From positions 1-21,091 of the forward strand of contig JAISTI010000231.1 of assembly GCA_031272685.1 (NCBI GenBank): a stretch of DNA of 21,091 nucleotides, in the 5' to 3' direction. The position numbers and the translations under genes were made by a program. Positions 1 to 18,774 of the stretch are shown here, in pieces (within the stretch, counting starts at the first letter, position 1; each line of letters starts with the position of its first letter). Under the pieces are notes generated by a model. That model did no database searches. It saw nothing but the letters and a program-made list of their open reading frames with translations, and was not told the origin of the DNA. The DNA comes from Propionibacteriaceae bacterium (GTDB taxonomy: Bacteria; Actinomycetota; Actinomycetes; Propionibacteriales; Propionibacteriaceae).

Positions 1-2469
1 TACAAGGGCTTCAAGGACGGGCGGGCCTACTACCTGAACGTCGCGCTCACCTCCACGGCGTCCGAGCTGGAGGACAACTCCACCGTGGCCAATGCCACCT
101 GGGTGCGCTCCGGGCAGGCCACGGTCGGCTCGGCCTACTGGTCGGGCACCGCCGACACCGACTATTACGGCATCAAGCTCACCAACCCCGGCGCGCTCAC
201 CTTGAGCTTGACGTATCCGAACAAGGGCGGCACCGCCACCGCGTACACCGTCGAGGTGACGGACGGCACGACCGCGCTTTTCCGCTACACCTTGACGCAG
301 GCGCAATATGACGGCGCCACCCTGCGCAGCAAGCCGCAATACCTGCCGGCGGGCAATTACTACATCGCGGTGAAGGCCAACAAGGCTAGCAACCCGCTGT
401 GGGGGCTGACGTATACCTTCACCGCGACGGCTACCGCGATGCTAGCCGAGAAAGAACCGAACGACGCCTCCACCACCGCGACCGCCATCAGCAGTGGGGT
501 GCCCATCGCCGGCTCGTCGAACCGCATCACCAGCCCCGACCAGGATTGGTACATCTTCAGCGCGGCCTACACCTCCCCGGCGAATTTCAAGCTGGATTTC
601 TCGGTGTCCGGCGATCCGGGCGACGCGGCTTACGACGTCGACGTCTACTGGCTGAACCCGACCACTTCGTCCTTGGTGCAAATTGGCAGCACCTACAACC
701 TCAAGCTCGCCGACGCCGGGCAATACCGGGCCACCGCGATCAACTTGCAGCAGAACGGCCGGTTCTTCATCCGGGTGCAGGCGGCGAACACGTATAAGAC
801 CTGGCAGGCGCCGTACACGCTGACGGCCGCTTTCAGCCAGCTCTACACCACGCTGGAGCCGGATAACGCCGACGACGGTTCTTACACGAACGCGCTGCCG
901 ATCGCGCAGGGCGCCACCGTCACCGGCTATCTCAAAGGCACCGGCAATGATGTGGACACCTACCAGGTGGAGGTCGCGAACCCGTCGCGGCTCTACCTGA
1001 GCTTCACCTACCCGGCGATGGACGCCAGCAAGGACGTCTACCGGCTGAAGGTGTACTCGGTGGAGAGCGGCACGCAAGTCGACCGCTACTACTGGGTGCT
1101 GCGCGGCGACAAAGCCGACGGCTCGTGGCTGAACAACGTCTACATGTACGTGCCGGCGGGGACGTACTACATCGAGATTTCCGGGCTAACCACTTGGCCC
1201 AGCGGCAATCAGCCCTACTATCTGCAAGTGGGCACCGGGGCGCAGAACGTGGAATTCGAACCGAACGCGACCAGCGCGACCGCCACGTTCATCCAGCTCG
1301 GCGAAGTGCTCACCGGCTCGCTGCTGAACGCGACGAAGTCTGGAGACCAATACGTCGATGACGACTGGTTCGCCTTCCAGATCACCGAAACCGATATCTA
1401 CACCATCAACCTCGCGCACGCGAACCTGGGCGTGGACGCCAACTTCGCGGTGATGAACCTCTCCGGCGCGGACACCGACACGAAGGTGAGCAAGGCCAAC
1501 GAGGCGAACTCCACCATTCAGCGCACGCTGAAGCCGGGCAAGTACTTCCTGAAGATCGAGGGCAACGACTCGCTGCCGTCTTGGGGCCAGTACTACCAGC
1601 TGGTCGTCGGAAAGGTTATGGTGGCCGGCACCGTCGCCATCAGCGGCTCTGCCGTGGTCGGCTCCACGCTCACCGCGATCACCAGCGGGTGGACGCCATC
1701 GAACGTTACCCTGTACTACCAGTGGTACCGCAACGGGGTCGCCATTCCGGGGGCGACCGGCCAGACCTACACGCTGACGGCCGCCGACCAAGGCGCCACT
1801 ATCACGGTGGGCGTCACCGGCGGGCACAACGACTACGCGCCGGCGGCCGGCGCGGCCTCGGCAGGGGTCATCGCGCCAGCTCCGTACCAAGCGCCGGCGG
1901 TGTCCATTACCGCGGGCAAGGTGACCATCACCGGCACCCCGGCCATTGGCAAGACCCTGAAGGCCAATACGGGAACCTGGTCGCCCGCCGGAGTGTCGTT
2001 CAACTACCAGTGGTATCGCAACGGCAAGGCCATCTCCAAGGCGTACGGCTCCACGTACAAGCTGGTGAAGGCCGACAAATACGCGAAGATCACCGTGGTC
2101 GTCACCGGCCTGTACCCCAACGCCTACAACGTCTCGGCGGTCTCGAAGGCGACCGCGAAGATCAAGTACGCGTCCACCACCACGGCCAAGCTCTCCAAGA
2201 CTTCCATCAAGAAGAGCGCGAAAGGCAAGGTGAGCGTCACGCTGAAGACTTCGCTAACCAAGAAGCCGACCGGCAAGGTGACGGTGACAGCCAAGAAGGG
2301 CACCAGCTCTAAGAAGGTGACGTACACCTTCAAGGCGGCCAAGAAGGGCAAGGCGACGATCACGCTGCCGAAGCTGGCCAAGGGCACTTGGAAGGTGACG
2401 GTGAAATACGCCGGCACCACCAAGATCTACAAGAGCACGTCCAAGACGCTGAAGCTGAAAGTCAAGTAG
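1..2469 (+). CDS. Secreted PPC/Ig-like repeat surface protein, 5' end outside window
   Basis: The frame is open from base 1, so the GTG at 85 is an internal valine and the true start lies upstream; 822 residues are visible. At least four PPC-like (pre-peptidase C-terminal) beta domains are seen, each opening with an acidic E-P-N/D-type motif (LAEKEPNDAS, TTLEPDNADD, VEFEPNATSA) and closing with G-x-Y-Y/F-I/L; they cover roughly residues 21-540. Two Ig-like modules with the YQWYRNG motif follow (about 542-720), then a Lys/Thr-rich Ig-like tail of about 100 residues ending LKLKVK. There is no LPxTG motif or C-terminal membrane helix, so the very basic tail may bind wall polymers; that is inference. 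PPC domains are common in secreted peptidases and adhesins; any catalytic domain would lie in the missing N-terminus. It is probably an exported adhesin or hydrolase, and the specific substrate is unknown. Confidence 0.85.
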   Translation, partial: YKGFKDGRAYYLNVALTSTASELEDNSTVANATWVRSGQATVGSAYWSGTADTDYYGIKLTNPGALTLSLTYPNKGGTATAYTVEVTDGTTALFRYTLTQAQYDGATLRSKPQYLPAGNYYIAVKANKASNPLWGLTYTFTATATAMLAEKEPNDASTTATAISSGVPIAGSSNRITSPDQDWYIFSAAYTSPANFKLDFSVSGDPGDAAYDVDVYWLNPTTSSLVQIGSTYNLKLADAGQYRATAINLQQNGRFFIRVQAANTYKTWQAPYTLTAAFSQLYTTLEPDNADDGSYTNALPIAQGATVTGYLKGTGNDVDTYQVEVANPSRLYLSFTYPAMDASKDVYRLKVYSVESGTQVDRYYWVLRGDKADGSWLNNVYMYVPAGTYYIEISGLTTWPSGNQPYYLQVGTGAQNVEFEPNATSATATFIQLGEVLTGSLLNATKSGDQYVDDDWFAFQITETDIYTINLAHANLGVDANFAVMNLSGADTDTKVSKANEANSTIQRTLKPGKYFLKIEGNDSLPSWGQYYQLVVGKVMVAGTVAISGSAVVGSTLTAITSGWTPSNVTLYYQWYRNGVAIPGATGQTYTLTAADQGATITVGVTGGHNDYAPAAGAASAGVIAPAPYQAPAVSITAGKVTITGTPAIGKTLKANTGTWSPAGVSFNYQWYRNGKAISKAYGSTYKLVKADKYAKITVVVTGLYPNAYNVSAVSKATAKIKYASTTTAKLSKTSIKKSAKGKVSVTLKTSLTKKPTGKVTVTAKKGTSSKKVTYTFKAAKKGKATITLPKLAKGTWKVTVKYAGTTKIYKSTSKTLKLKVK

Positions 2470-4960: not shown

Positions 4961-7900
4961 ATGGTCCGGAAGGCTGCTGCCGCGCTTGTCGCGCTTGCCA
5001 TCGGCATGCTCGGGCAAGCGATCCCCAGCCCAGCCATGGCTGCCGCGTCCGAGCCGCAAGTGCTGGCGCAATCCGATTCCTTGGCGCTGGCCGTTCTGCC
5101 CGCCACATCCGATGACGGCCGAGTGCGTTTCGAATTCGCGGCGGTGGACGCATCCTGCCTTGTCATGCCGATATTGGTGGCAGACGGCACCACCGTCTCC
5201 CACGCCGGCGTCACTGTAAACTCCGACGCAGGGCCCAAGACCATCGAAGTCGAACCCACCCCCACCATGATCGCTCAGGTGCCGGACGGGATCGATTGTT
5301 CCGCCGTCACCCAAGCGGAGCTTTTCGTCGCGCAGACCGGCATCCTGTTCGCCAGCCCGTGGGAGGAAACCCCCCGGACGGCCGAGTCTTTCGCCCCCCG
5401 GCTCGCCGACGACAGCCAGGTGTTCGCCTTCGAAATCGAGGTCATTTCGGACAGCGACGCCGAGATGGTTATGCAGGTTCAGCCGAGCGTGCTCGCCGCC
5501 GCCGGAGACGGCTACAACCAACTCGCCCCCGTGGACGAGGACACCGGCGAGCCGCGCTGGTATCCGGTGAACCGGACGTCGGGAGCCACCAAGGCCGCCG
5601 AAGAACCGGCCGCCGAAGACGCGGCGGAAACCGCGGGCGGTGCGGCTCCAGAGGCCTCCGACGCTCTGGGGGGCGGGGAATCCGCCGATCCCCAGGAAGA
5701 CGGGCAGGGCACCGCAGCCGCGGCAGCGGCGGAGCCACAGATCCCCGCCCAAAGCCCCGCCCTGCGCTCAGCGGTCGCTCCCACCACGCAGTTCAACCCG
5801 CAGACCACGATATTCACCACGGCCGCCGGAGCCCTCGGCGGCTACCTCAGCGCCGGCACGGTGACAAGTTCGGGCGCTACCTGGCCCACGCTCAACGTCA
5901 ACCGGACTTCGATCGGGCAAGACGCCATGAGCACCGACCCCGAGCATTTCAACGCCTGGACCAGCCTGGGCGAAGCCAGCGTCGGAACCACCGTCAATCC
6001 CAACGGATCCGGCGGTACCTTCGCCTACACCTTCGCCAGCTCCGAAGTGCTGCACATTTGGCAGAAAACCCCGGCCACCCCGGCCGAAGCCAGCGCCGCG
6101 GGCGTTACCGGGCAAGCCACCTCCGCCACCCACACCGTCGCCTCCGCCACCACGCATGCCGGCGGCTACCTGCGCTACACCATGCCCCCGCGCGACAAGG
6201 AAGCCAGCGAGCTGACGGAAAACTGGATGAGCTACCTGTTCGAGTTCAACTGCGAAGTGACAACCGGCACCGCTTCTTCGACCTCCTGCGACGCCATTGC
6301 CGCCCAGGATCCAAAGCTGTACGTGCAATACGGCCATGCCGGCAAGTACTACACCGCCGCCCACCCCGAAGGCTTGCAGATGGGACTGCTGGTGACCTTC
6401 TCCGATTTCGATTTCGGCTCATTCACCGGCTCCAGCGGCTCGCGCTGGAACAGCAACCACCCCGGCGTGAACGTCTCCAACCTCGCCATGGCGGGCTTCT
6501 GGATGGACGGCATCCAATCCATGAACGTCTCCTACCAGTTCTTCTCCATCGGGGCCGACGGCCAGTTCGACAAGCTGCTCAACGTGGTGCCGACCGCGTC
6601 CCCCAGCCCGTCGGAAAAAACTTGGCTCACCATCGGCCCGCTGGTAAACCACTCGTCCGGTTCGGCTGCCGGCTCGGCCGCCTATTACACGCTGGCCGAG
6701 GCCGTGCAGAAGGTGACGGACGCCAACAACTGGGATTTGCAGACCGTCCCCTCCATCGGTACCAACATCGTCAGCATCCCCTCCGGCCTGAGCGGCCTGG
6801 CCGACTACGCCGGCATGTACACCTCATCCACCAGCGAGTCTTCAGTTTCCATCGGGATGACGGGGTTCGAACGGCAGGCGGTCTCGTTCCAGATCGTCGG
6901 CACGAAAAACACCTTCCGCTTCAAAGAGGGCAACAACAACTTCGGCAAATACATCGCCACCTCCTACATCCGGCCGGTCAACCCCGGCCAGCCGTCCAAA
7001 GCGGTGACGGGGGCAAGCACCCCGGGTGCGGACGAGCTGAACGTGAACGCCGCCGGAAACTCGGCGTCCATGCTGCTCAACGACGGCGTGCAGGTCTACT
7101 CCGACACCGCCGCCAGGCAGGGGGCGGCGCCTTCGCGGGTGAGCGCGGAGACGACCACCGCCGTCGCCAGCTATCCCAACGGCGTGCAAATCCGGATGCG
7201 GCAGACATACACCGCCAACGGCAACTATGGCTACACCCACCACATCTACTACGAGGTTCTGGTTTCCGGCCAGTGGGTCCAGTTCTTCCACGCCTCGGCT
7301 ACCAAGACGAACAGCAACCAGACGAACGGGACGAACGCGGTCCAATATGTGACGGAACCTTCCGCCGACCCGGATCTGCAAGTTTTCGTCAACCGCCTAG
7401 CCACCTACCAGGTCGCGCAGACAACCTCCGGCTGGTATACCGTCGTCGCTTTCAATTCCTACCGCTACACCGATCCCGGCCCGTATGCGGTTTCGGCAGA
7501 TGGGGCCAGCACCCAGTATGCGAACGGCACGGCCACCCCCGACACCGTGTCGAAAGCGGACGGGCAGATCACGGTAAACGGCAGTGCTCCCGACAGCGCC
7601 TATAGCGCATACATCACCACCGACGCGTACTACTCAGCGCAGGCCACCGGCACCGGCGCAAACGACACCTTTTCGGTGAACCGGCAGGCGAAAGTGTTCT
7701 ACTTCGACATCACCCAGCCGGTCTACCACCTGCCCAACGACTCGGTGGTCAAACCCGACGCCCTCGTCATCCAGGATGTGCTGCCCCTCGGCCTGCGCTT
7801 GAACACCGGATCCATCAACAGCGCCCTGGGTGAGGCCGCGACCACCTTTCCCTGCGCGACCGCCGCCTCCCAGACGGCCTGGACGCTGTGGCAGGGCGGG

Positions 7901-10672
7901 GTGCAAATGAGCGCCTCCTGCTCGGCGGCCGCGGTCACCACGCAGACCGCGTCCGGCCTCGGCACCCAGGGATACCGCCAAGTCGTCACGGTGACGCTGT
8001 CGGCGGCGCAGATTAACGCCCTGGTTTTCGACGGCACCTCGTACACCGTGCGCATCCCGGTGGTCGTCGACACCTATTCGCCGGTGCTGGAGCGCATGAC
8101 CCGCACCAGCCCCTTCCCGGCTTGGGAGCTGTTCAACCACGCCACCTCGTCCTGGCAGCTTGTGGACAGCGAAACCCCGGCGAACTCGTTCTCCTGGCAA
8201 GGATCCACCAACGAGACGAAAAACCAGATCTCTTTCATCGGGGATTTCACCGAGATCGAGTTCACGAACATCCTCGGCGAAGTCACCTGGGACGACCCGA
8301 CGTCCTCGTCCGGGGCGCAGCTCGAAGCCGCGGACATCAACGAGCTGCGGCAGAAGGCCTTCGAGAACCAGCCCGCCTATGTGGATTTCCTGCTCTATTC
8401 CAAAATCGGCAACGGCGCGTTCACCGACACCGGGAACTTCTACCGCCTGGGCAAGCCCGCCACTTCCGCGACGCCCTGGGGGCACGTCTCCGCGGTAAAC
8501 CTGCCCAAGCAAGACGCGGACGGAAACCTGATCACCTACAAGCTGGTGCTGCAAGCTCCCGCCCACTGGCAGGAAGTCAGCTCCCTGCGACAAGAGGAAG
8601 TGTTCGACCCGCCCTCGGACGGCTGGAACAAGCGCTTCGGCTTCACCCTGCGGCCGGTCGTCTCCGTGGGCGGCCACAAGACCTGGATCGACGCCGACCC
8701 CGAAAATCCGACGCACCCAGCCACCCTCACCGTCTATCTGACGCTGAATGGCGTCCGCCAGACGTCCATTTCCCTGGTAACCAGCGCGTCGAACAACTGG
8801 AATTACTCGTTCACGGCCCTCAGCCGCTACGGCCACATCGACGCCGCGACCGGCGAGCTGACCCAGGACGCCACCCAGCCGTGGGTGGAGTTGGAATACG
8901 GCGTCACCGAGCAAAACCTGCCGTTTTTCACGAAACTCGACGATGTGCGCGCCACACCGTACGACACCGGCGACGTGACCCACAACCTCACCAACACCTA
9001 TAAGACCATCGTCGAATTCACGCCGATCCGCGGGCAGAAAAACTGGGCCGATGAAGACGACTTCGAAGGCAAGCGCCCGGATGTGCTCGGCCTGCGGCTC
9101 TACCGCACCAAGGCGGGCCAAAGCCCCCAACTGGTCGCCACCTACTACACGGACGCCGAAGGCGGCGACGGGGCCGGCGGCGTGCCCGCCTGGGGTTTCG
9201 ATTTCGGGCTGTCCAGCTCCGTCACCACCACCGTCAACGGCGAGCAGGCGCGCACCAACACCATCGAGGCGGCGATCCTCGAAGAAGACGACGCGGCGAA
9301 CCTCTTCCAGGATTCCATGTTCGACGTCACGGACAATTACCTGGGCTATCCGAGCGGGGCGCGGCGGCTGTTCGCCAAGAACTACCGGATTTCGGCGCTC
9401 ACCGGCGAGATGGAGAATTACACCTATTCAGTTAGCGAGTTCGCCTTTGACGGCAACGGCCAGGAAGTGGCCACCATCCCCGGCTACGAGCTGGGCCAGA
9501 CCACGCTGACTCCCGAGCCGTACTTGGACGCGGAGGGCAACTACCACCCGCAGGAAGCGGGGGTTGCCGAGTATTCGTACTTTTTCGCGGTCACGAACCG
9601 CATCGTCACGGTGAACGTCACCACCCAGAAGCAGACGCTCAGCCTGCGCGTGGTGCTGGACCAAGACCGCGCCACCCCCGTGGAAGGTGTCGGATTCGAG
9701 GTCTACCAATATTCGGTGCTGACCCACTCCTGGGTCTACATCGACCAGGCTTACACCGACGCGGACGGCTATCTGGCCTTCTCCGGCTTGGGCGCCGGCG
9801 CCAACGACCCGGCGGCAACCGACACCGGAACCACTGACCCGGCCACCGGGCGCATCGCCCGCGACAACGGCGTGAAATACCGGCTGCGGCAATCTTTCAC
9901 CCCCACCCGGCTGCAGGAGAGCCGCTACGAGATCGAATTCGAACTGGTGAAGAACATGGCCGTCGCCGGGGCCAGCGTCACCGGCAACCCCTGCGCGGCC
10001 AATCCCTGCCCGGCGATCCCCGCCGCCAAATACACGGTGCTCAAGAACGGATCGATGAAGCTGTTCGAGGCCGGAGCGGTGGACGAGCCGATCGGCACGG
10101 TGATGGGCCACGCCAACCGGCTGCGCACCATCCAAGGCAACGCCATCGACGTGCTCGGCAACACCGCCGCCACCAACACCGCGGACGCCGACGGCATCAC
10201 CGCGGCGGTCACCCTGGAACGCGACGGCAACACCGGAAACTCGCACAACCTCGGCTCCACTTTCCTCACCGGGGCCAACTTCGCCCTGCTGGATCCGTAC
10301 CCGGCCACCGGCTCAAATGTGAACCGGCTGGCCACCCTGAGCAACCTGGTCGAGTACAGCTACTACAACACCGACATCGTGACCACCGCCCAAACGCAAA
10401 CCATCAGCGCCAGCGACGGCACCTCCAACAACGACCGGGCCGACGCCACCCGCCAAGAGGCCGCCCAAGGCGTGGCCACCGCAGACGGATACAACCACAT
10501 CGACCGAGTGATCAAGCTGACCATCGCGCTGTCGCGCAAGGGCGTCCCAGTTCCAGCCACCGGCGGCCAGGGCGCTGAATTGCTGCTGCTCGGCGGCTTC
10601 GCGGGCTTGGGCTTGGCCGGCGCCCGGGTGTGGCGCGGGAATAAGAAGGTGGCCTCCCGTCGTTTCGCCTAG
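4961..10672 (+). CDS. Very large Cna_B-type pilus adhesin (tip pilin) with VPATG signal
   Basis: The 1903-residue protein starts at an ATG with a good AGGGAG site 3 bases upstream (4952-4957). A signal peptide ends near AMA (residues 25-27). A folded segment follows, then an Ala/Glu/Gly-rich linker (about 206-268), then a large adhesin region (about 270-900) that I do not recognise. After that comes a D2-like fimbrial isopeptide domain (about 905-1090), two Cna_B domains with their isopeptide lysines in GHKTW (Lys1240) and GQKNW (Lys1360), and a SpaA-like prealbumin domain (about 1550-1680). The C-terminus has VPATG (1864-1868), a hydrophobic helix and the basic tail KKVASRRFA, a variant sortase signal. 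No VYPK pilin motif was noticed. Size, lead position in the operon and the adjacent pilus sortase suggest the tip or ancillary adhesin of a sortase-built pilus. The ligand is unknown. Confidence 0.85.
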   Translation: MVRKAAAALVALAIGMLGQAIPSPAMAAASEPQVLAQSDSLALAVLPATSDDGRVRFEFAAVDASCLVMPILVADGTTVSHAGVTVNSDAGPKTIEVEPTPTMIAQVPDGIDCSAVTQAELFVAQTGILFASPWEETPRTAESFAPRLADDSQVFAFEIEVISDSDAEMVMQVQPSVLAAAGDGYNQLAPVDEDTGEPRWYPVNRTSGATKAAEEPAAEDAAETAGGAAPEASDALGGGESADPQEDGQGTAAAAAAEPQIPAQSPALRSAVAPTTQFNPQTTIFTTAAGALGGYLSAGTVTSSGATWPTLNVNRTSIGQDAMSTDPEHFNAWTSLGEASVGTTVNPNGSGGTFAYTFASSEVLHIWQKTPATPAEASAAGVTGQATSATHTVASATTHAGGYLRYTMPPRDKEASELTENWMSYLFEFNCEVTTGTASSTSCDAIAAQDPKLYVQYGHAGKYYTAAHPEGLQMGLLVTFSDFDFGSFTGSSGSRWNSNHPGVNVSNLAMAGFWMDGIQSMNVSYQFFSIGADGQFDKLLNVVPTASPSPSEKTWLTIGPLVNHSSGSAAGSAAYYTLAEAVQKVTDANNWDLQTVPSIGTNIVSIPSGLSGLADYAGMYTSSTSESSVSIGMTGFERQAVSFQIVGTKNTFRFKEGNNNFGKYIATSYIRPVNPGQPSKAVTGASTPGADELNVNAAGNSASMLLNDGVQVYSDTAARQGAAPSRVSAETTTAVASYPNGVQIRMRQTYTANGNYGYTHHIYYEVLVSGQWVQFFHASATKTNSNQTNGTNAVQYVTEPSADPDLQVFVNRLATYQVAQTTSGWYTVVAFNSYRYTDPGPYAVSADGASTQYANGTATPDTVSKADGQITVNGSAPDSAYSAYITTDAYYSAQATGTGANDTFSVNRQAKVFYFDITQPVYHLPNDSVVKPDALVIQDVLPLGLRLNTGSINSALGEAATTFPCATAASQTAWTLWQGGVQMSASCSAAAVTTQTASGLGTQGYRQVVTVTLSAAQINALVFDGTSYTVRIPVVVDTYSPVLERMTRTSPFPAWELFNHATSSWQLVDSETPANSFSWQGSTNETKNQISFIGDFTEIEFTNILGEVTWDDPTSSSGAQLEAADINELRQKAFENQPAYVDFLLYSKIGNGAFTDTGNFYRLGKPATSATPWGHVSAVNLPKQDADGNLITYKLVLQAPAHWQEVSSLRQEEVFDPPSDGWNKRFGFTLRPVVSVGGHKTWIDADPENPTHPATLTVYLTLNGVRQTSISLVTSASNNWNYSFTALSRYGHIDAATGELTQDATQPWVELEYGVTEQNLPFFTKLDDVRATPYDTGDVTHNLTNTYKTIVEFTPIRGQKNWADEDDFEGKRPDVLGLRLYRTKAGQSPQLVATYYTDAEGGDGAGGVPAWGFDFGLSSSVTTTVNGEQARTNTIEAAILEEDDAANLFQDSMFDVTDNYLGYPSGARRLFAKNYRISALTGEMENYTYSVSEFAFDGNGQEVATIPGYELGQTTLTPEPYLDAEGNYHPQEAGVAEYSYFFAVTNRIVTVNVTTQKQTLSLRVVLDQDRATPVEGVGFEVYQYSVLTHSWVYIDQAYTDADGYLAFSGLGAGANDPAATDTGTTDPATGRIARDNGVKYRLRQSFTPTRLQESRYEIEFELVKNMAVAGASVTGNPCAANPCPAIPAAKYTVLKNGSMKLFEAGAVDEPIGTVMGHANRLRTIQGNAIDVLGNTAATNTADADGITAAVTLERDGNTGNSHNLGSTFLTGANFALLDPYPATGSNVNRLATLSNLVEYSYYNTDIVTTAQTQTISASDGTSNNDRADATRQEAAQGVATADGYNHIDRVIKLTIALSRKGVPVPATGGQGAELLLLGGFAGLGLAGARVWRGNKKVASRRFA

Positions 10673-10731: not shown

Positions 10732-11973
10732 TTGGCCAAAGGCAAGAAGCGGTGGCTGGACACGGCCATCACCTGGGCCATCGGGATTGCCTCGATGGCG
10801 GCCTTGCTGTACCCGCTCGCGTCGAATCTGTACGTGGTGGTGGAGAACGAGTACCTTTCCCAGCGGTATCGCGAGGAAGTGGCCAAGACCTCCGAAGCCG
10901 ACCTCGCCCTGACCAAGAGCTATGTTGACGCCTACAACGAAGCCATCCGCTCCGGGGCGGACGCCCAAGCCCTGCACATCGCCGAATTCGAAGGCGGACG
11001 GGTGGTCGAACAGCCGGACACCCAGTGGGTGCGGGCGAATCTCAAGCCGGACATCTCGCCGTACGACGAGGAACCAATCATAGGCGTGTTGGAAATCCCC
11101 AAGCTCGGCTTGGAAACCCCCATCCGCAAAGGGACTTCGGCGAACACCCTGTCAGATTCCGTCGGCATCGTGGACGGCACGTCAATCCCCTCGGAGAAGC
11201 TGGGGGTGCACTCGGTAATCGCCGGCCACCGGGGGATGCCCGGCGCCGTGCTGTTCCGGCACCTCGACCTGCTGGAGCCCGGAGATCAGTTCTTCATCCA
11301 GGTGGGGGATCTGCGCCTGGCCTACACGGTGCGCGAACTGCGGGTGCTCAGCCCCGATGAGGCCGCCGACTTCTCTGTCGACGCGGAACACAACTACGCC
11401 ACGCTGCTCACCTGCACCCCCTACATGGTGAACTCTCACCGGTTGCTGGTGACCGGCGAACTGACCGATGTGGGCAAGCCCGCCCCCGTGAGCCTGCCGT
11501 ACTGGTTCTGGCCGGCGCTCTGGCTGGCCCTGGCCGTGCTGGCCATCGCCTACATGCTGTGGATGGTGTTCCGGCGCGGGACGGTGCGCTTCTACTCCAA
11601 GCCGAGGTGGGATGCCAAACCAGTTCCGAAGACGGAATGGGACGTCTACGCCTACAACCACAAGGCGTTCAACCCGCAGACGGCCACCCGTGATGAGCTG
11701 ACCCAGACGGCGGCCGGGAAGAACAAGCGGGTGAACAAGGAGGCGCTCACCCCGGATGCCCACGGGCGGGTGAAGCTCGGCAGGCTGCGCCGCGGCCGCT
11801 ACTACGTGGTGCAGACCGCCGCCGGCCCGGCCCAGCCGCTGGATTTGGCGCCGCACTGCTTCCGGGTGCGGGCGTTCCGGGCGCATCCCTGGCGCCAGCT
11901 GCGCGCGGCCCAGCGCGTGTGCCTTGGCAACGAGCCGAAGAAATTGCCCCGGCCGCCGGGAATAAACCGCTAG
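10732..11973 (+). CDS. srtC: Class C (pilus) sortase with basic SpaA-like C-terminal extension
   Basis: This 413-residue membrane transpeptidase joins pilin subunits by cleaving LPxTG-like signals and linking them to a pilin lysine. TM1 is about residues 11-33. The catalytic barrel contains His166 (AGHRG), Cys228 (TLLTCTPY) and Arg237 (NSHRLLVTGE), the complete sortase triad. A second helix (257-280) before a basic stop-transfer RR is typical of class C. The usual lid motif Asp-Pro-Phe/Trp is not seen; ISPYDEE (109-114) sits just before the barrel in its place. The protein then continues for about 130 residues, where family members normally end. The part KEALTPDAHGRVKLG followed by RGRYYVVQTAAG resembles a SpaA/Cna_B beta domain with Gln in place of the E-box Glu. 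Topology puts this tail in the cytoplasm. The gene lies between tip and shaft pilin genes with gaps of 59 and 79 bases, consistent with one operon. Confidence 0.92.
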   Translation: MAKGKKRWLDTAITWAIGIASMAALLYPLASNLYVVVENEYLSQRYREEVAKTSEADLALTKSYVDAYNEAIRSGADAQALHIAEFEGGRVVEQPDTQWVRANLKPDISPYDEEPIIGVLEIPKLGLETPIRKGTSANTLSDSVGIVDGTSIPSEKLGVHSVIAGHRGMPGAVLFRHLDLLEPGDQFFIQVGDLRLAYTVRELRVLSPDEAADFSVDAEHNYATLLTCTPYMVNSHRLLVTGELTDVGKPAPVSLPYWFWPALWLALAVLAIAYMLWMVFRRGTVRFYSKPRWDAKPVPKTEWDVYAYNHKAFNPQTATRDELTQTAAGKNKRVNKEALTPDAHGRVKLGRLRRGRYYVVQTAAGPAQPLDLAPHCFRVRAFRAHPWRQLRAAQRVCLGNEPKKLPRPPGINR

Positions 11974-12040
11974 CCGAAACCGTTTCAACATCTTAGGAGA
12001 GAGGGCCATTCGCCCCCATAGAGTCACGCGGATGTGTGAA

Positions 12041-12047
12041 AAGGAGG
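12041..12047 (+). promoter_or_regulatory. Strong Shine-Dalgarno deciding a TTG start for the shaft pilin
   Basis: AAGGAGG lies 5 bases before the TTG at 12053. An ATG at 12032 in the same frame would place this site inside the coding region and add a charged MCEKEG leader, so TTG at 12053 is the more likely start and gives a normal signal peptide. Confidence 0.8.
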
Positions 12048-12052
12048 GTGTC

Positions 12053-15000
12053 TTGAACAAGGCAACCAAGGTATTGGCGTGCGTCAGCGCAGTGCTGCTG
12101 TTGGCGGTGGGCAACGCGATCACGGGGCAGAGCGCCCATGCTGACGAGAGCGTCAACATCGTCGTCCACAAAATGAAATACAAGTCGCTTTCGGACGATT
12201 CCGAAGACAGCCCGGCGTACAACCAGTCGCTGATCACCAACAACGGGGCCGAGAAGAGCCAGCAAGACCTGGAGGCGTTGGGCGCGACACCCGACGAGGC
12301 CGCAAAGTTCGAGCTGTACACGGTGCTCGGCAAGATGAAGGACGGGATCTACACCGACCTGGTCGCCCTCATCGAGTGGGGCAACTTCACCGGCCTGCGC
12401 AGCGCGCAGCAGGAGTTGGCCGGCGCCAAGCAAAACGCCTCCGGGCAGTTGGTGCTCCCGATCGAAGGGGCGGACTCGCCCATCAAGTCGCCGCTGACCC
12501 GGGCTTGGATTCGCTACACGATCGCCGACAACTCCGCCCAGACGGTCAATCTCTCGACCAAGTACTACGCGCAAACCAAAGACCCCACCAAGGCGTTTAA
12601 CCTGTTCATCGACGCGTTGCTCACCAAGATGAAGGGCGACCTCGACACCAACGCCCTGGTGACCTACTTTGGCGGCAGCGCCGACTTCCCGCTGCTCAGC
12701 AGCACCGGCGACCAATCCGGCGTCGAAGGCGCGGTCACCTTCTCCGGGCTCGCCAGCCCCGGGCGCTATTTCATTGTCGAAGACAACAGCTCATGGGACG
12801 GCGACGGCGAGGACAACACCTCCCGGAAGGTTTCCACCCCGATGGTGATCGACCTGCCGCTGACCAATCCCGACGGCACCGCCGCCAACGTCTCGAACAC
12901 CATCCACGTCTATCCGAAGACCGAATACCCCACCGGTGGCGCCTGGTTCGCCAAGGTGACCTCCGACTTCGACGTCGCCGGGGAGGAGTTCTCCGAACCG
13001 GAGGCCGCCGAGGGGGCCGGTTTCGCGCTCTACCGGGTCAAGGACGGGGTGCTGGAAAGCAAATGGAACGAGCTGAAGGGTTCCCAGCATGACGCCAGCG
13101 AGTTCGACACCGGTTCCAACGCGCAGTACGTGGACATGATCTCCAGCGGGGAAGACGACGGCCTGTGGCGTTCGGACGAGCAGGGCGTCGTGAGTATCGA
13201 GGATCAGGTCAAAGGCCGCTATTTCTGGCTGGAGGTGGAGCCGACCCAAGACGAAGATGGGCTCGACTACTCGCTGAACCGCTGGCCGGTCTACTTCACC
13301 ATCACCGACGCCACCGCGACCGGCCCGACCACGCACGCGGCCGAGGTTTTCTCGGTGTCCACACTGGTCGACTTCAACCACGACAAGGACGCCGACCTGA
13401 CCGGCGAGGAAACCGCGGATCTGAAGGCGCTGGTCAACTACCAGCAGAACACCATGGACGCCTTGCAGTGGCACTCCGACCGGGAGGTGGACGGCACCTC
13501 GTACGCGGGAATCCACACCGAAGGGAATAAGGTGAACGGCTCCATCGACTACACCGGCGAGGACGACCTGCATGTCACGCTGGCGGCGACCTTGAAATCT
13601 CCGCAGATGCTGGCCGATGAGCACTACGCCGTCTTCTATGACGTGTTCACCACCCAATGGCTCTCCCAGTATGAAGGCGGTTCCTTCATCCGCGAGGCCT
13701 ACTACGGTCCGAACAAGAAGACGAACCCGACCACCGATCCCAACTACCACATGCTGGATATCCGCACCCTGATCGGTTCGCTCAATGGCAGCACGTTCAC
13801 CAAGTACAGCGACGCCGTCGTCGGTGGCGAGCAGACCCACCGCACCAACCAGGTGTACTACTCCACCGGCGTCGCCGGCGCCGAGCCCGCCACCTACACG
13901 TACGTCACCGCTATCCACGGCGAAAACCACGAGGGCACCCGCAGCGTCATCAACCCGGTGCTGCGGGTGGAAACCGCCGAGACCGTGTACGTGTTCTCCG
14001 GAGTCGCGGACGCAGACGGCGACCCCGTCCAGGACACGGCGCCCGCGCACCAAATGACAAGCGTTGCCGGCAAAGACGTGGAGTGGCTGGGCGGCTTCTG
14101 GGACGGCTACCCGGCCCGCGACTGCGACCCGCTCGAAGAGCCGGCCAGTTGCGACGCCATCAACTCCCAGGCCACCGACTCCAATATCACCGGCGCCGCC
14201 CACCTGGCCTGGTATGACGATCCCGATGACCAGATGTCCTTTGAGAACGGCACACCCAGAGGCACTCAACTGCAGGCGATTCTGAACGTGCCGTACGTGC
14301 TCGAAAAGGTGGCTGAGGCTGAAGGCATCGAAGAAATCGACACGAACGCCACGGAGGTGGCCGCCTCGGCGAAGATCACCGGCCTCAGCGTGGACATTGC
14401 GTTCACGTTGAATCCGGAGCTGTTCGAGCGCGGCTTTCAGATCCACCAGTTCGGCCAGTTCGAATGGGGCGGCGGCAACAACGAGGCCACCATCGTGGAA
14501 AACCACGTCGCCTACGGCACCGCCGGGGCCAACGTGATCAAGACGGACTCGGAAGGCCGCCCGCTCGGCGGCGCGCAGTTCGTGCTGAAAAACTCTGAAG
14601 GCAAATACCTGGTGGCCCGCACCGCCGCCGGGGCGGCGGAAGCCGGACCGGTCTCCAAGGTCTCCGGTGTGTATGGCTGGGTTGGCGAAGAAGATATAGA
14701 GCAAGCCACGAAGCTGGTTTCCGCTTTCGACCAAGGTGCCGGCGGGAATATCGACTATGGCGAGCTGTATGAGACGGCTCAGCCCGATGAAGGCCCGGAG
14801 TTGCCCGTGGTGGTAGACGGCTCGCGCACCGGCGTCATCACCGTGCGCGGCCTGGAGCTGGGCACCTATGAGCTGGAGGAAATCCGCACGCCCACGAACC
14901 GGGAAGGCGGCACCTTCCGCATGCTGGGTTCGGCCGAAGAGCTGAACTTGAGCAACCACGACCTGTTCGGCAGCGCCGAGTCGGTGGCCTCCGACACCGC

Positions 15001-15316
15001 GGAAAGTGTCAACCACACGGCTTCGGACAAGGTGCTCGTGGGCCATTCGGCCACCGTGAAGCACACCTGGACCGGCGCGGTCGGCCAAGACCTGACCGAC
15101 AACGACTTGAAGGGCTCGGTGACCTCGGCAAACCCCGACCTGGATATCGCCGGCGCCGGCATGGCCGATGTTTCGCAGACCGGCGTGCAAAACGTGCAGG
15201 CGGCTCCGTTCCCGATCACCGGCGGGATTGGGTCGGCTTTGCTGATCTTGTTCGGAGGCTCCGGCTTGTATTACTGGTACAAGCGCCGCCAGAAGGCCCA
15301 AGAGGAAACCGCCTGA
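12053..15316 (+). CDS. Major (shaft) pilin, isopeptide-containing, FPITG sorting signal
   Basis: The 1087-residue precursor begins with a signal peptide (LNKATKVLACVSAVLLL, cleavage near SAHA/DES). The N-terminal pilin D1 domain ends in the pilin motif HVYPK, whose lysine (Lys289) is the expected acceptor for sortase-mediated polymerisation. A SpaA-like domain follows (about 290-430, E-box-like GRYFWLEVE). Next is a long region of about 380 residues that I do not recognise, which opens with an Asp-rich EF-hand-like loop (440-452). A C-terminal SpaA domain follows, with the lysine in NVIKTDSEG (Lys830) and the E-box TYELEE (near 940). The end is FPITG (1053-1057), a hydrophobic stretch and the tail KRRQKAQEETA. 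Pilin motif plus sorting signal make it the polymer-forming subunit of this cluster, exported and built by the upstream sortase. It is about twice the usual 450-550 residues of shaft pilins. Start chosen by the AAGGAGG site. Confidence 0.9.
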   Translation: MNKATKVLACVSAVLLLAVGNAITGQSAHADESVNIVVHKMKYKSLSDDSEDSPAYNQSLITNNGAEKSQQDLEALGATPDEAAKFELYTVLGKMKDGIYTDLVALIEWGNFTGLRSAQQELAGAKQNASGQLVLPIEGADSPIKSPLTRAWIRYTIADNSAQTVNLSTKYYAQTKDPTKAFNLFIDALLTKMKGDLDTNALVTYFGGSADFPLLSSTGDQSGVEGAVTFSGLASPGRYFIVEDNSSWDGDGEDNTSRKVSTPMVIDLPLTNPDGTAANVSNTIHVYPKTEYPTGGAWFAKVTSDFDVAGEEFSEPEAAEGAGFALYRVKDGVLESKWNELKGSQHDASEFDTGSNAQYVDMISSGEDDGLWRSDEQGVVSIEDQVKGRYFWLEVEPTQDEDGLDYSLNRWPVYFTITDATATGPTTHAAEVFSVSTLVDFNHDKDADLTGEETADLKALVNYQQNTMDALQWHSDREVDGTSYAGIHTEGNKVNGSIDYTGEDDLHVTLAATLKSPQMLADEHYAVFYDVFTTQWLSQYEGGSFIREAYYGPNKKTNPTTDPNYHMLDIRTLIGSLNGSTFTKYSDAVVGGEQTHRTNQVYYSTGVAGAEPATYTYVTAIHGENHEGTRSVINPVLRVETAETVYVFSGVADADGDPVQDTAPAHQMTSVAGKDVEWLGGFWDGYPARDCDPLEEPASCDAINSQATDSNITGAAHLAWYDDPDDQMSFENGTPRGTQLQAILNVPYVLEKVAEAEGIEEIDTNATEVAASAKITGLSVDIAFTLNPELFERGFQIHQFGQFEWGGGNNEATIVENHVAYGTAGANVIKTDSEGRPLGGAQFVLKNSEGKYLVARTAAGAAEAGPVSKVSGVYGWVGEEDIEQATKLVSAFDQGAGGNIDYGELYETAQPDEGPELPVVVDGSRTGVITVRGLELGTYELEEIRTPTNREGGTFRMLGSAEELNLSNHDLFGSAESVASDTAESVNHTASDKVLVGHSATVKHTWTGAVGQDLTDNDLKGSVTSANPDLDIAGAGMADVSQTGVQNVQAAPFPITGGIGSALLILFGGSGLYYWYKRRQKAQEETA

Positions 15317-15386: not shown

Positions 15387-17834
15387 ATGAACGTGCCCAA
15401 ACAACTGCTGTCCCTGGTGGCGGCCACGACCGTGCTGTCCGGGATGTGCGCCATTGTGCCCACCGCCGCGCAGGCCGACACCGCTGAGTTGCCGCTGGCC
15501 TTGAAGATTGACAAGTTCTCCGCGAAGAACTCCGCCAGCGACGAATCGAGACCGGTGCGTTACCAGACCTACAACGGCTGGTTCGAAAGCACCAGCGCGG
15601 ACGCGGTGCGGGAAAACGGCATCCGCCTGACCACCGGAGAATACTGGGGCGAAACTCGCGGCGGAGTCTTTTTGACCGATCCTATTCAGGCCGAAGAAGG
15701 CTTCTCCACCAGCTTCGAAATCGCCATGGGCGGGGGCACCCGGCCGGTGGCGGACGGCTTTACCTTCGTGGTGGCCAGGGACACCAACACCGTCGGCAAT
15801 CCCGGCGCGGCGCTCGGATACCAGGGGATCGGCAATTCCATCTGCCTGGAATTCGACACTTACCACAACGGGGATTGGGATGCTGGGCTCGGCGTCCCCC
15901 ATATCGGGATGGGCGTGAACGGCAACATCCATAACACTCATGTGGACTCAGACGGTGTGGACGTCGGGCACATCGTCCCCGACTACAGCTATGACTACAC
16001 CCTTTACGGCTGGGTGGAATACAACCCGGAGACCAACATCCTCGAATATCGGATTGCCAAGGACGAGAACGTCCGGCCCGCCGAGGCTGTCTACCGCACC
16101 GAGGTGGATCTTTCCGCCTATGTCGGCGACACCTACCACCTTGGTTTCACCGCCTCAACCGGCATGCTCGCCCAAGAGGTGACCGTAAGCCGTTGGTATG
16201 CCACCGCCGAGTATGTGGAGGGCGGCCTGCAATTGATCGAAGACTCATTGGTGGACCGCACCGGCCCCACTGTCGATGTGATCAGCCGGGAAGAAGGCAG
16301 ACTCGTCATCGAGGCTAGCGACGGTGACGGGGTGGGCGTCGACTACATCGAATACAAGCTTGCCAAGGACGACGGCTGGACCGTCTACAACCCCGTTTCC
16401 GCTCCGGAGATTGCCGCCGATGCCAAGGTGTGGGCGCGCGCCACCGATCTCATGGGCAACACCGGCGCCGTGGCGAAGAACAAATTCGCGGCCGACACGA
16501 CCCCCCCGGTCGTCACAGTCGCGCAACTAACCGACGGTGTGCTTACGCTGGAGGCCACCGACGAAGGCACCGGGGTGGACCGGATCGAATACCGCGGCCA
16601 GACAACCGGCCAGTGGCTGACTTACGACCCGTCCGCCCGCCCAGAGGGGCTGGAGTTCGCCCAAGGCCGCGCCATCGACAAGTCCGGAAATGTGTCGGGC
16701 TTGATGGTGCTGTTGCGCGCGGGCGCTGAACGGCTCACTTTCGATCTGTTGGACATGTACGGCGGCTACTGCGCGGGCTGGGATCCCAACCAGGTGGACA
16801 CTTACACCAATGGCACCAAGGGCCCTTCGCTGGCCTTGGGATTCAAAGACTGCCCGGTCAGCGTCGAACTCTCGTTGCAGGCCGGCGATCGGGTTGACTT
16901 GGTCTTTGCGCGCGGATCCGAGTATGCGGACTCGGTCGGCTTCATCGGATACGCGGACGGCGCCGAGGTTGCCAACTTCGAGTTCGGCTCTCTGAATGAA
17001 GTCGCGGACGGCGGCTTGGTGGCCGCCTTCATCGTGCCGCCGGGCGAAGAGCCGGACGAGGAGCTGGCCGATGGTGCTGGTGACGGTGAACCAGTTGACG
17101 AAGATCCGGTCGATGAGCAAGTCGATGTGGGGCCTGCCCCTGAAGAACCAGCCGCTGAAGAACCAGCCGCCGACGAGCCTGGCGCCGACGAGCCAGTCGT
17201 TGGCGAGCCCGGCGGCGAGCCCGCCGCCGAGCCGGCGCCCGGACAGTCAGCCGACCCGGCTCCGGGATCCCCCTCCAATGCGGAAAATGCGGCCGCGGCC
17301 GGGGCAACTGAAAAGCCCGCGCAGACCGAGAAGGGCACAACTAAGAAGGACACCGCCAAGAAGGACACCGCCAAGAAAGCGAAGGCCAAACTGGCCACCG
17401 TCAAGCTGAACGTGAACGGCGGCAAGAAGCTGGCATCGTCCAAGACCACCAAGAAGGTTGCCGTCGGCAAGGCGCTCGGAACTCTGCCCACGCCCACGCG
17501 CACCCACTACCGGTTTGCCGGCTGGTACACCGCGAAGACGGGCGGAACGCGGGTGACCTCCGCGTCCACCGTGGCCAAATCCGCGACGCTCTACGCCCGC
17601 TGGGTGAAAATGAAGAAGTACGCGGTGGTGCGTCCCGGCGCGCTCTATGTGCGCAGCGCCCCCTCCGAGCATCCCGATCTGTCCAAGGTCGTCGGCTCCA
17701 TTCCCCGGGGCAAGGCCGTCGCCATCAAAGGCACGGTGGATCGTCCCGGCAAAACCCGCGACTGGTACAAGATCACTTTCCGCGGCAAGATCCGCTACAT
17801 CGACGCCAACTACGTCAAAGTGGTCTGGCGCTGA
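15387..17834 (+). CDS. Secreted L-type lectin with SH3-like wall-binding C-terminus
   Basis: The 815-residue protein starts at an ATG preceded by AGAGGAAGAG. A signal peptide ends at AQA/DTA (residue 30). An L-type (legume-like) lectin domain covers about 35-275: ADGFTFVVARDT, then LEFDTYHN with Asp157 and Asn161, Asp163/165 and His172, which fit the Ca/Mn and sugar-binding positions of the fold. Two Ig-like modules follow (DRTGPTVDV near 290 and DTTPPVVTV near 370), then a unique segment with two cysteines (462, 489). After an acidic Pro/Glu-rich linker (about 554-630) comes a Lys-rich stretch, a Listeria-Bacteroides (Flg_new) repeat (about 670-739) and an SH3-like domain (744-813, LYVRSAP and DWYKI). 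There is no sorting signal, so anchoring is probably non-covalent through the basic or SH3 part. It is the last gene of the pilus cluster, 70 bases after the shaft pilin. Sugar specificity cannot be read from sequence. Confidence 0.88.
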   Translation: MNVPKQLLSLVAATTVLSGMCAIVPTAAQADTAELPLALKIDKFSAKNSASDESRPVRYQTYNGWFESTSADAVRENGIRLTTGEYWGETRGGVFLTDPIQAEEGFSTSFEIAMGGGTRPVADGFTFVVARDTNTVGNPGAALGYQGIGNSICLEFDTYHNGDWDAGLGVPHIGMGVNGNIHNTHVDSDGVDVGHIVPDYSYDYTLYGWVEYNPETNILEYRIAKDENVRPAEAVYRTEVDLSAYVGDTYHLGFTASTGMLAQEVTVSRWYATAEYVEGGLQLIEDSLVDRTGPTVDVISREEGRLVIEASDGDGVGVDYIEYKLAKDDGWTVYNPVSAPEIAADAKVWARATDLMGNTGAVAKNKFAADTTPPVVTVAQLTDGVLTLEATDEGTGVDRIEYRGQTTGQWLTYDPSARPEGLEFAQGRAIDKSGNVSGLMVLLRAGAERLTFDLLDMYGGYCAGWDPNQVDTYTNGTKGPSLALGFKDCPVSVELSLQAGDRVDLVFARGSEYADSVGFIGYADGAEVANFEFGSLNEVADGGLVAAFIVPPGEEPDEELADGAGDGEPVDEDPVDEQVDVGPAPEEPAAEEPAADEPGADEPVVGEPGGEPAAEPAPGQSADPAPGSPSNAENAAAAGATEKPAQTEKGTTKKDTAKKDTAKKAKAKLATVKLNVNGGKKLASSKTTKKVAVGKALGTLPTPTRTHYRFAGWYTAKTGGTRVTSASTVAKSATLYARWVKMKKYAVVRPGALYVRSAPSEHPDLSKVVGSIPRGKAVAIKGTVDRPGKTRDWYKITFRGKIRYIDANYVKVVWR
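17141..17170 (+). repeat. Tandem 15-base repeat in the acidic linker
   Basis: TGAAGAACCAGCCGC occurs twice in direct tandem, encoding the repeated E-E-P-A-A unit of the lectin linker. Imperfect copies continue to about 17230. Such repeats can change linker length by slippage. Confidence 0.75.
17343..17372 (+). repeat. Tandem 15-base repeat encoding KKDTA
   Basis: AAGAAGGACACCGCC is repeated twice without a gap, followed by a partial third copy AAGAA. It encodes K-K-D-T-A repeats in the basic part after the acidic linker. Confidence 0.8.
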
Positions 17835-17856
17835 GCGGCGTTGCCTTCGCCTGCTT

Positions 17857-17892
17857 CCAATACCTATCCGGATTGGCCGGGCGCATGCCGGC
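17857..17892. terminator. Possible weak hairpins between convergent genes
   Basis: The 75-base gap between the lectin stop and the end of the minus-strand protease holds two overlapping short inverted repeats: CCAAT/ATTGG around a 10-base loop (17857-17876) and GCCGG/CCGGC around GCGCATG (17876-17892). They could serve as a bidirectional terminator, but the stems are short and mutually exclusive. Confidence 0.25.
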
Positions 17893-17909
17893 TGGAGTCT
17901 GCGAGGCCG

Positions 17910-18701
17910 CTAGCTTCCTTCCTGGGAGGCAAGGGCGTGTCTTTCCCACGCCCAGGCCAGCAGGCAGGCGGCCACGGTCTCCACGGTGAGCAGGATGATG
18001 AGCAGCGGTGTGGGCTTTGGCACGAAGTAGGACAGCAGCGCGTTGGAGCAGCCGTGGAAGATGACGCAGGCCACCACCGAGCTGCTCACCCGGCGGATGA
18101 GCATCAGCAGGAAGGACAGCACCAGACCCAGGGACGCGAAGGAGAAGAAATCTGAGCCGGTCGACTGCGGGCTGCCCGGGATCAGGAAGAGCGGCAGATG
18201 CCACACCGCCCAAATTGCGCCGACGCCCAGGGTGGCCAGTGGGAGGAGCAGGCGCCGCTCCGCAGCCGGTTGCAGGAAGCCGCGCCAGCCGAGTTCTTCC
18301 AGCCCGCCACCGAGCAGCGCGGTGAACACGGCGCTGGCCGGCAGCAGGTACCAAGGCATCTCGGAGTTGATCGCGGAGGTGGCGGCCAGCACCAGGGTGT
18401 GGACGGCCAGCACGGCCGCGAGCACGGCGAGGGTGCGTGGCCAGTGTTCCGCCCCGAACGCGTAACGCAGCAGATCGCGGACGCCGCGCAACTCGCCCCA
18501 GGCATACTTCAGCCAGACGATCGCGATGGTGGGCCCGAACCCGCCGAGCATGAACAGCGCCCATCCTGGAACGGAGGCGAACACAATCGCGCCAGTGCCC
18601 ACTAGCAGATACAGCAGACCCCAACTGCCCCACGAAATCCCGAACGTGAGCCCGAGGAACCAAAGGACGCGGCCCAGGGGCTTGCCGGCGGAAAAACTCA
18701 T
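17910..18701 (-). CDS. CPBP-family intramembrane metalloprotease (CAAX/Abi type)
   Basis: The 263-residue protein is almost entirely hydrophobic, with about seven or eight membrane helices. The family's three motifs are present: EELGWRG with Glu135, Glu136 and Arg140, then AVWHLPLF with His168, and IFHGCSN with His216 and Asn220. These residues place the active site within the membrane. Members process prenylated or membrane proteins in eukaryotes; in bacteria they are tied to bacteriocin self-protection and sometimes surface-protein maturation. I chose the ATG at 18701 because GGGA lies about 9 bases upstream; a TTG at 18707 would add two residues. It faces the pilus operon tail-to-tail and is divergent from the alpha-glucosidase gene. 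A role in pilus biology is only possible by proximity. Confidence 0.9.
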   Translation of the reverse strand: MSFSAGKPLGRVLWFLGLTFGISWGSWGLLYLLVGTGAIVFASVPGWALFMLGGFGPTIAIVWLKYAWGELRGVRDLLRYAFGAEHWPRTLAVLAAVLAVHTLVLAATSAINSEMPWYLLPASAVFTALLGGGLEELGWRGFLQPAAERRLLLPLATLGVGAIWAVWHLPLFLIPGSPQSTGSDFFSFASLGLVLSFLLMLIRRVSSSVVACVIFHGCSNALLSYFVPKPTPLLIILLTVETVAACLLAWAWERHALASQEGS

Positions 18702-18774
18702 AGCCAATCATCCCACGCCGGAACATGGAACGGCGTCACCGTGCACAGACCGTGGCTCCACGCCCCACCCGGCA

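Follow-up and report, generated by a model that had tools for sequence, protein, structure and literature searches.

The window, i.e. the whole stretch of 21,091 nucleotides analysed here, is a single contig (JAISTI010000231.1) of a Propionibacteriaceae bacterium whose assembly is rated 66% complete. A class C (pilus) sortase gene with a predicted cytoplasmic extension (10732-11973, forward strand; 413 aa, TTG start) sits between two pilin-type genes with sorting-type signals (4961-10672 and 12032-15316). The 5' neighbour, on the forward strand, encodes a large surface protein of 1903 aa with Cna_B domains (Pfam Cna_B, 48.6 bits), the translation of which ends in a sorting-type signal composed of PATGG, a hydrophobic stretch and a basic end; this protein is probably the tip pilin. 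The 3' neighbour, also on the forward strand, encodes a pilin of 1094 aa that contains GramPos_pilinD1 and SpaA domains according to Pfam and shows a VYPK pilin-type motif and a PITGG sorting-type signal in its translation, so that its role is probably that of the backbone pilin. A protein of 815 aa encoded 3' of the pilins (15387-17834, forward strand) has a legume/L-type lectin domain, OmpL47-type repeats, a Listeria-Bacteroides repeat and an SH3 domain, and is probably secreted, without an obvious sorting signal. The cluster is adjoined by a gene for a CAAX protease-like membrane protein (17910-18707, reverse strand; Rce1-like, 48.9 bits), and the frame that overlaps this gene (17815-18726, reverse strand) looks spurious.

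The sortase is assigned to its class by the NCBIfam model NF033745 (174.3 bits for the ORF, cut-off 160) as well as by the Pfam Sortase family. Its first membrane helix (residues about 11-37, 10762-10842) is preceded by a basic N-terminus, the catalytic domain occupies residues 120-244 (11089-11463; PF04203, E 1e-19) with His166, Cys228 and Arg237 in invariant columns of our sortase alignment A1, and the second membrane helix (residues about 253-283, 11488-11580; best hydropathy window 262-280) ends in Arg-Arg. The two hydropathy peaks thus flank the catalytic domain as N- and C-terminal helices. Class C sortases polymerise pilins, and their catalytic domain is extracytoplasmic, where it must meet its substrates. 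Past the second helix there are about 132-133 residues with a net charge of +19, in agreement with the tail of about 130 residues in the original prediction, although the tail begins slightly before the residue 284 given there, at about residue 281-282 (nt 11572-11575). Its GC content by codon position (0.67/0.52/0.89) is like that of the sortase body (0.64/0.42/0.87), therefore the tail seems to be coding in frame. We divide it into a SpaA/CnaB-like (prealbumin-like) domain, residues about 281-382 (11572-11877), and a C-terminal segment, residues 383-413 (11878-11970), which is part helix and of low confidence in the AF2 model. The two helices found by hydropathy, together with the basic flank, agree with the predicted cytoplasmic position of this domain, and we regard the anatomy of the tailed sortase, i.e. 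two helices and a SpaA/CnaB-like tail, as well supported.

Taken alone, the tail has SpaA as its best Pfam family (PF17802; E 0.046, 14.3 bits, below the cut-off of 23.1), and SpaA is not listed at E values up to 1 when the whole sortase is scanned against Pfam. A profile of 18 pilin domains, which is slightly circular in that it holds a domain first spotted through the window tail (L162) and its other rows were chosen with a profile having the window tail as one out of 11 sequences, gives the tail 14.3 bits and the reversed tail -1.8; the Pfam score is free of this circularity. From 2000 shuffled tails 1180 were reported at all by the same profile, the best with 6.4 bits, and none had the score of the real tail. 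Among PDB sequences (E up to 10) there are three matches, all of them CnaB/pilin chains (8bdw at E 0.075, 3rkp and 3kpt at E 1.9). A search of 396 Actinomycetota genomes with the tail (E 0.01) gave matches in 8, the window's own included, and the two best non-self matches are multi-SpaA proteins (G310, E 4.6e-4, and G139, E 1.9e-3). The other five of the seven non-self matches (L034-L038) were not accepted, L034 and L035 judging from their frames and L036-L038 solely because the frame was short or contained a stop. On these sequence comparisons, the SpaA likeness of the window tail is greater than chance would give.

The alignment covers the whole domain, from an A strand straight after the helix to a strand beyond the E box. 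The AF2 model of the tail is a prealbumin-like beta sandwich with the predicted core strands present, but it is not independent because pilin SpaA rows stood in its alignment; the domain corresponds to model residues 1-102, a helix follows at model residues 106-117, and pLDDT is 39-65 in the last four blocks. A single-sequence model (pLDDT 38) is too poor to judge the fold. The CnaB-type matches listed for the AF2 model in fold searches are mostly surface proteins by title. All in all, the tail looks like a whole SpaA/CnaB domain of about 100 residues. The original prediction had seen in it only the last strands of such a domain: the likeness itself was borne out by Pfam, the profile and the shuffles, but its limits were drawn too narrowly, as both alignment and model reach the A strand. 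For the same reason the idea of a captured fragment of a pilin gene survives in part, since a pilin origin fits a tail that resembles pilin domains most, but what was captured would be a whole domain rather than a fragment. A model without a beta sandwich, or a protein with a single membrane helix, had been named beforehand as speaking against the prediction; the usable model shows a beta sandwich, and the protein has two membrane helices.

Within the window's family, a sortase match (E 1e-15) was found in 50 out of 198 genomes, its own included, and among the matches listed the alignment extended beyond query residue 315 in the window alone; in the genomes of the class, matches at 1e-20 were found in 7 out of 394, again with its own included. 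After the addition of 20 further stretches, picked mainly for long frames, there were 92 distinct Actinomycetota sortase ORFs, a set that is part of the Actinomycetota matches and may include some sortases of other classes. The second helix is detectable in 78 of these and is followed by a median of 22 residues, in keeping with the earlier statement that class C sortases usually end soon after it. At least 80 residues follow in three ORFs, that of the window (133) and two with apparently low-complexity tails (343 and 461), and a SpaA-like tail is found in one out of the 92 ORFs examined, i.e. the window's. The class C sortases of the window's own family have the catalytic domain and the two helices in common with the window sortase, but those examined have short or apparently low-complexity tails. 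Nine other Actinomycetota tails (at least 50 residues behind the second helix) were considered as cryptic SpaA domains, and none scored above -0.8 bits. The two very long tails belong to class C-like sortases (L208, 461 residues, and L041, 343 residues), and that of L208 has a Lys/Arg/Ala-rich start. Another sortase-like ORF (L062) has no second helix and runs on into apparent TPR repeats.

The same architecture occurs in a group of pilus sortases of Lactobacillales, many of them plasmid-borne (Bee type). With the window protein as sole query, relatives were not found in the first scans of genome contigs and viral contigs, and a second scan of viral contigs gave 6 loci with sortase relatives whose alignments end at query residue 336 or before, short of most of the tail. 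A scan of genome contigs with a sortase alignment gave at least 593 relatives among at least 598 stretches; 80 loci were kept, and among the matches listed three alignments extend past residue 350, all of them from Enterococcus (L100, L144 and L165). In the 102 sortase ORFs of 78 of the kept loci, at least 85 residues follow the second helix in 8 cases, four being SpaA-like Enterococcus tails (L100, L144, L165 and a degenerate L126) and four reading as charged or low-complexity. The Pfam SpaA scores of L100 (24.3 bits) and of the plasmid sortase L204 (24.8 bits) are both above the cut-off of 23.1, L144 matches at E 0.001 and L165 at E 0.0042, and the L126 tail has no match to SpaA in Pfam. Of the 12 Lactobacillales tails tested in Pfam, all but L126 match SpaA with an E value of 0.008 or lower, and for 10 of them SpaA ranks first among the families. 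Five other long sortase tails from Bacillota, which served as controls for cryptic SpaA domains, were all without a SpaA match in Pfam.

When 72,556 plasmid records were searched, L100 had 593 matches and L144 had 575; at 80% or higher query coverage, which requires part of the tail, there are 77 records for L100 and 96 for L144, few of which were read singly. We read 24 sortase CDSs from plasmids matched by the pBEE99 pair or by L100 and L144, and 23 of them (many being near copies) have a tail of 108-124 residues without a stop; the remaining one, from L. formosensis, has 11 residues. The tailed sortases come from Enterococcus, Lactococcus, Carnobacterium, Leuconostoc and Levilactobacillus. 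Plasmid pBEE99 of E. faecalis (NC_013533.1) has a five-gene pilus cluster, presumably the Bee locus, whose last two genes encode class C sortases, both of them tailed. Like the window protein, they are sortases of a pilin cluster in which the second helix is followed by a basic tail lacking the isopeptide Lys and Glu; the tails have 108-116 residues, and their E values against Pfam SpaA are 0.0036 and 0.008. They form a tandem pair annotated only as 'class C sortase', whereas the window has one sortase. A profile built from ten Lactobacillales tails recovers SpaA-type ORFs adjacent to other sortases at E values as low as 2.1e-15, but its match to the window sortase (E 0.28) is not significant. 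In the plasmid clusters L193, L194, L196 and L204, tandem class C sortases each have their own, quite different SpaA-like tail.

SpaA/CnaB domains are commonly regarded as extracellular parts and often cross-link themselves, although the isopeptide Lys and the catalytic Glu are absent from some members. We aligned 11 cytoplasmic tails (92-133 aa) with 18 pilin domains (rows of 65-121 aa). The E-box column contains Glu in all 18 pilin domains and in one out of 11 tails (L189), and the Gln in place of Glu that had been noted earlier is confirmed by the alignments, with Gln361 of the window (11812-11814) in this column. The column of the isopeptide-forming Lys has Lys in 9 out of 18 pilin domains (3 gaps and 6 other letters, several rows being truncated there) and in none of the 11 tails; the window has Ser289 (11596-11598), with a Lys next to it at 290. 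In A4, a smaller alignment, the residue of L126 in this column is Lys, so its placement there is uncertain. All 11 tails are positively charged overall (+8 to +20), as opposed to a net charge of -7 to +5 in all 18 pilin domains. As far as alignments can tell, the window domain is thus without the Lys and the Glu in the columns needed for an internal isopeptide bond, and it is strongly basic. The BcpA domain (3rkp, 3kpt) and CnaB2 of Lactobacillus plantarum (8bdw) belong to surface proteins, while the window copy is predicted to be cytoplasmic, is basic, and has Gln for Glu and Ser for Lys.

In the Lactobacillales, synonymous change between the Bee and Lactococcus sortases is saturated and the frames are still open. 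For four close clusters pooled, pN/pS is 0.28 in the tail and 0.30 in the body; the excess of synonymous changes in the tail has p 0.018 on 14 changes, which is a small sample and refers to Lactobacillales clusters, not to the window's lineage. In a tree of 160 catalytic domains, made with a quick method and without bootstrap, ten tailed Lactobacillales rows fall within a 13-row set (SH-aLRT 99), the other three rows of which are without the domain. The window sortase is placed outside this set on a long branch, the nearest rows being Bacillota sortases, and the highest identity of its catalytic domain is 43%, to a Bacillus sortase. A tree constrained to a single clade of tailed sortases has a log-likelihood lower by 41 and is not rejected (AU p 0.165), hence a single origin followed by divergence, a transfer, and two separate recruitments are all compatible with the data. 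It is conceivable, though we would not count on it, that cytoplasmic recruitment of a pilin-type SpaA/CnaB domain took place on two or more occasions, in an actinomycete and in Lactobacillales, with loss of the isopeptide chemistry and gain of a strongly basic charge in each case, and that the domain constitutes a distinct, unnamed intracellular module that organises the pilus polymerase. Since neither the other Actinomycetota sortases examined nor three sortases in the Lactobacillales set have the domain, class C sortases in general manage without it. The tailed architecture is real, and it is a variant of class C sortases, not a separate kind of system.

What the domain does can be approached by comparison with Enterococcus faecalis. 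The basic tail of its sortases is short, i.e. not a folded domain of about 100 residues. The window tail is likewise a basic C-terminal part, and according to a passage in PMC4829219 (citing Kline 2009) the positively charged C-terminal region of the E. faecalis sortases is needed for their placement and distribution and for pili. This reported role leads us to favour a basic docking domain for the window tail as well. An excerpt of PMC4894902 suggests that sites of sortase A and SecA colocalise with anionic lipids. According to a portion of PMC10107303, pili on the E. faecalis surface are peripheral even though the septum is likewise enriched in sortases, so that where the sortase sits may not dictate the position of pili. 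By analogy, a folded basic domain just inside the membrane would be most readily understood as a bigger version of such a device for localisation and docking. We therefore picture a membrane-embedded class C sortase that would polymerise the flanking pilins, with a SpaA/CnaB-like domain that presumably folds on the inner membrane face and forms a basic docking platform, which may retain the enzyme at sites of pilus assembly or export via anionic lipids and/or a protein partner. The domain would have descended from a pilin-type domain and been reused inside the cell once its cross-linking chemistry was lost. That a basic, isopeptide-dead docking domain keeps the pilus polymerase at assembly or export sites is our preferred reading, to which we give a little under an even chance.

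The platform might also dock a protein rather than a lipid, pairing sortases with each other or tying the sortase to SecA/SecYEG. CnaB-type domains often mediate protein contacts, and both tandem sortases are tailed in the plasmid stretches of pBEE99, L. petauri, C. maltaromaticum, E. faecium and Leuconostoc carnosum. However, the window has one sortase, and in a 3.4-kb stretch of Levilactobacillus brevis a single class C sortase is accompanied by a class A enzyme; we consider this explanation possible but rather doubtful. An entirely different view is that the tail is an inert remnant, a pilin domain fused to the sortase by chance and tolerated in the window's organism. Such an accident would account for a domain seen in one out of 92 Actinomycetota ORFs examined, with a non-significant match to the Lactobacillales tail profile and no tailed close relative that could show selection in the window's lineage. 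It fits poorly with the intact frame and codon-position GC of the tail, with the core strands predicted in the AF2 model, and with the position, charge and residue losses that the tail shares with those of Lactobacillales, which in turn stay open across saturated synonymous change. Because comparable domains have been retained by class C sortases in the Lactobacillales, an accident without function is not a likely general explanation, and for the window we hold it to be improbable.

Two further explanations would take away the cytoplasmic domain altogether, and we believe neither to have any but the slightest chance. The tail could lie outside by virtue of an unusual topology and act as an ordinary pilin domain, as the surface-protein titles of most listed CnaB-type matches might suggest; but there are two clear helices, a basic N-terminus, an Arg-Arg followed by a basic domain after the second helix, and a basic charge in 11 out of 11 tails, and the catalytic domain must be outside to reach its substrates. 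The SpaA likeness could also be a chance resemblance of a basic disordered tail, as the sub-threshold Pfam score would allow, yet none out of 2000 shuffles had the score of the tail, the PDB matches are CnaB/pilin chains only, and the two best non-self genome matches are multi-SpaA proteins. A role in docking nascent pilins or as a decoy, both suggested in the original prediction, gained no support from anything tested. Returning to a docking domain at the inner face of the membrane, an intracellular version of SpaA/CnaB on pilus sortases, those of pBEE99 included, suggests some organisation of pilus polymerases on their cytoplasmic side, and how sortases reach and stay at assembly sites is a question that can now be addressed via one defined domain. 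A description of this architecture was not found in the open-access literature searched, outside of which most subscription papers lie, and an earlier mention is possible.

A minor point concerns the catalytic part of the window sortase. The active-site lid of class C sortases carries an Asp-Pro-aromatic motif. In the lid region of the window protein (residues 94-95, 11011-11016), Pro95 is kept and Gln94 is found where 9 other aligned sortases have Asp, so that, judged against the motif generally associated with the class, the lid may be altered.
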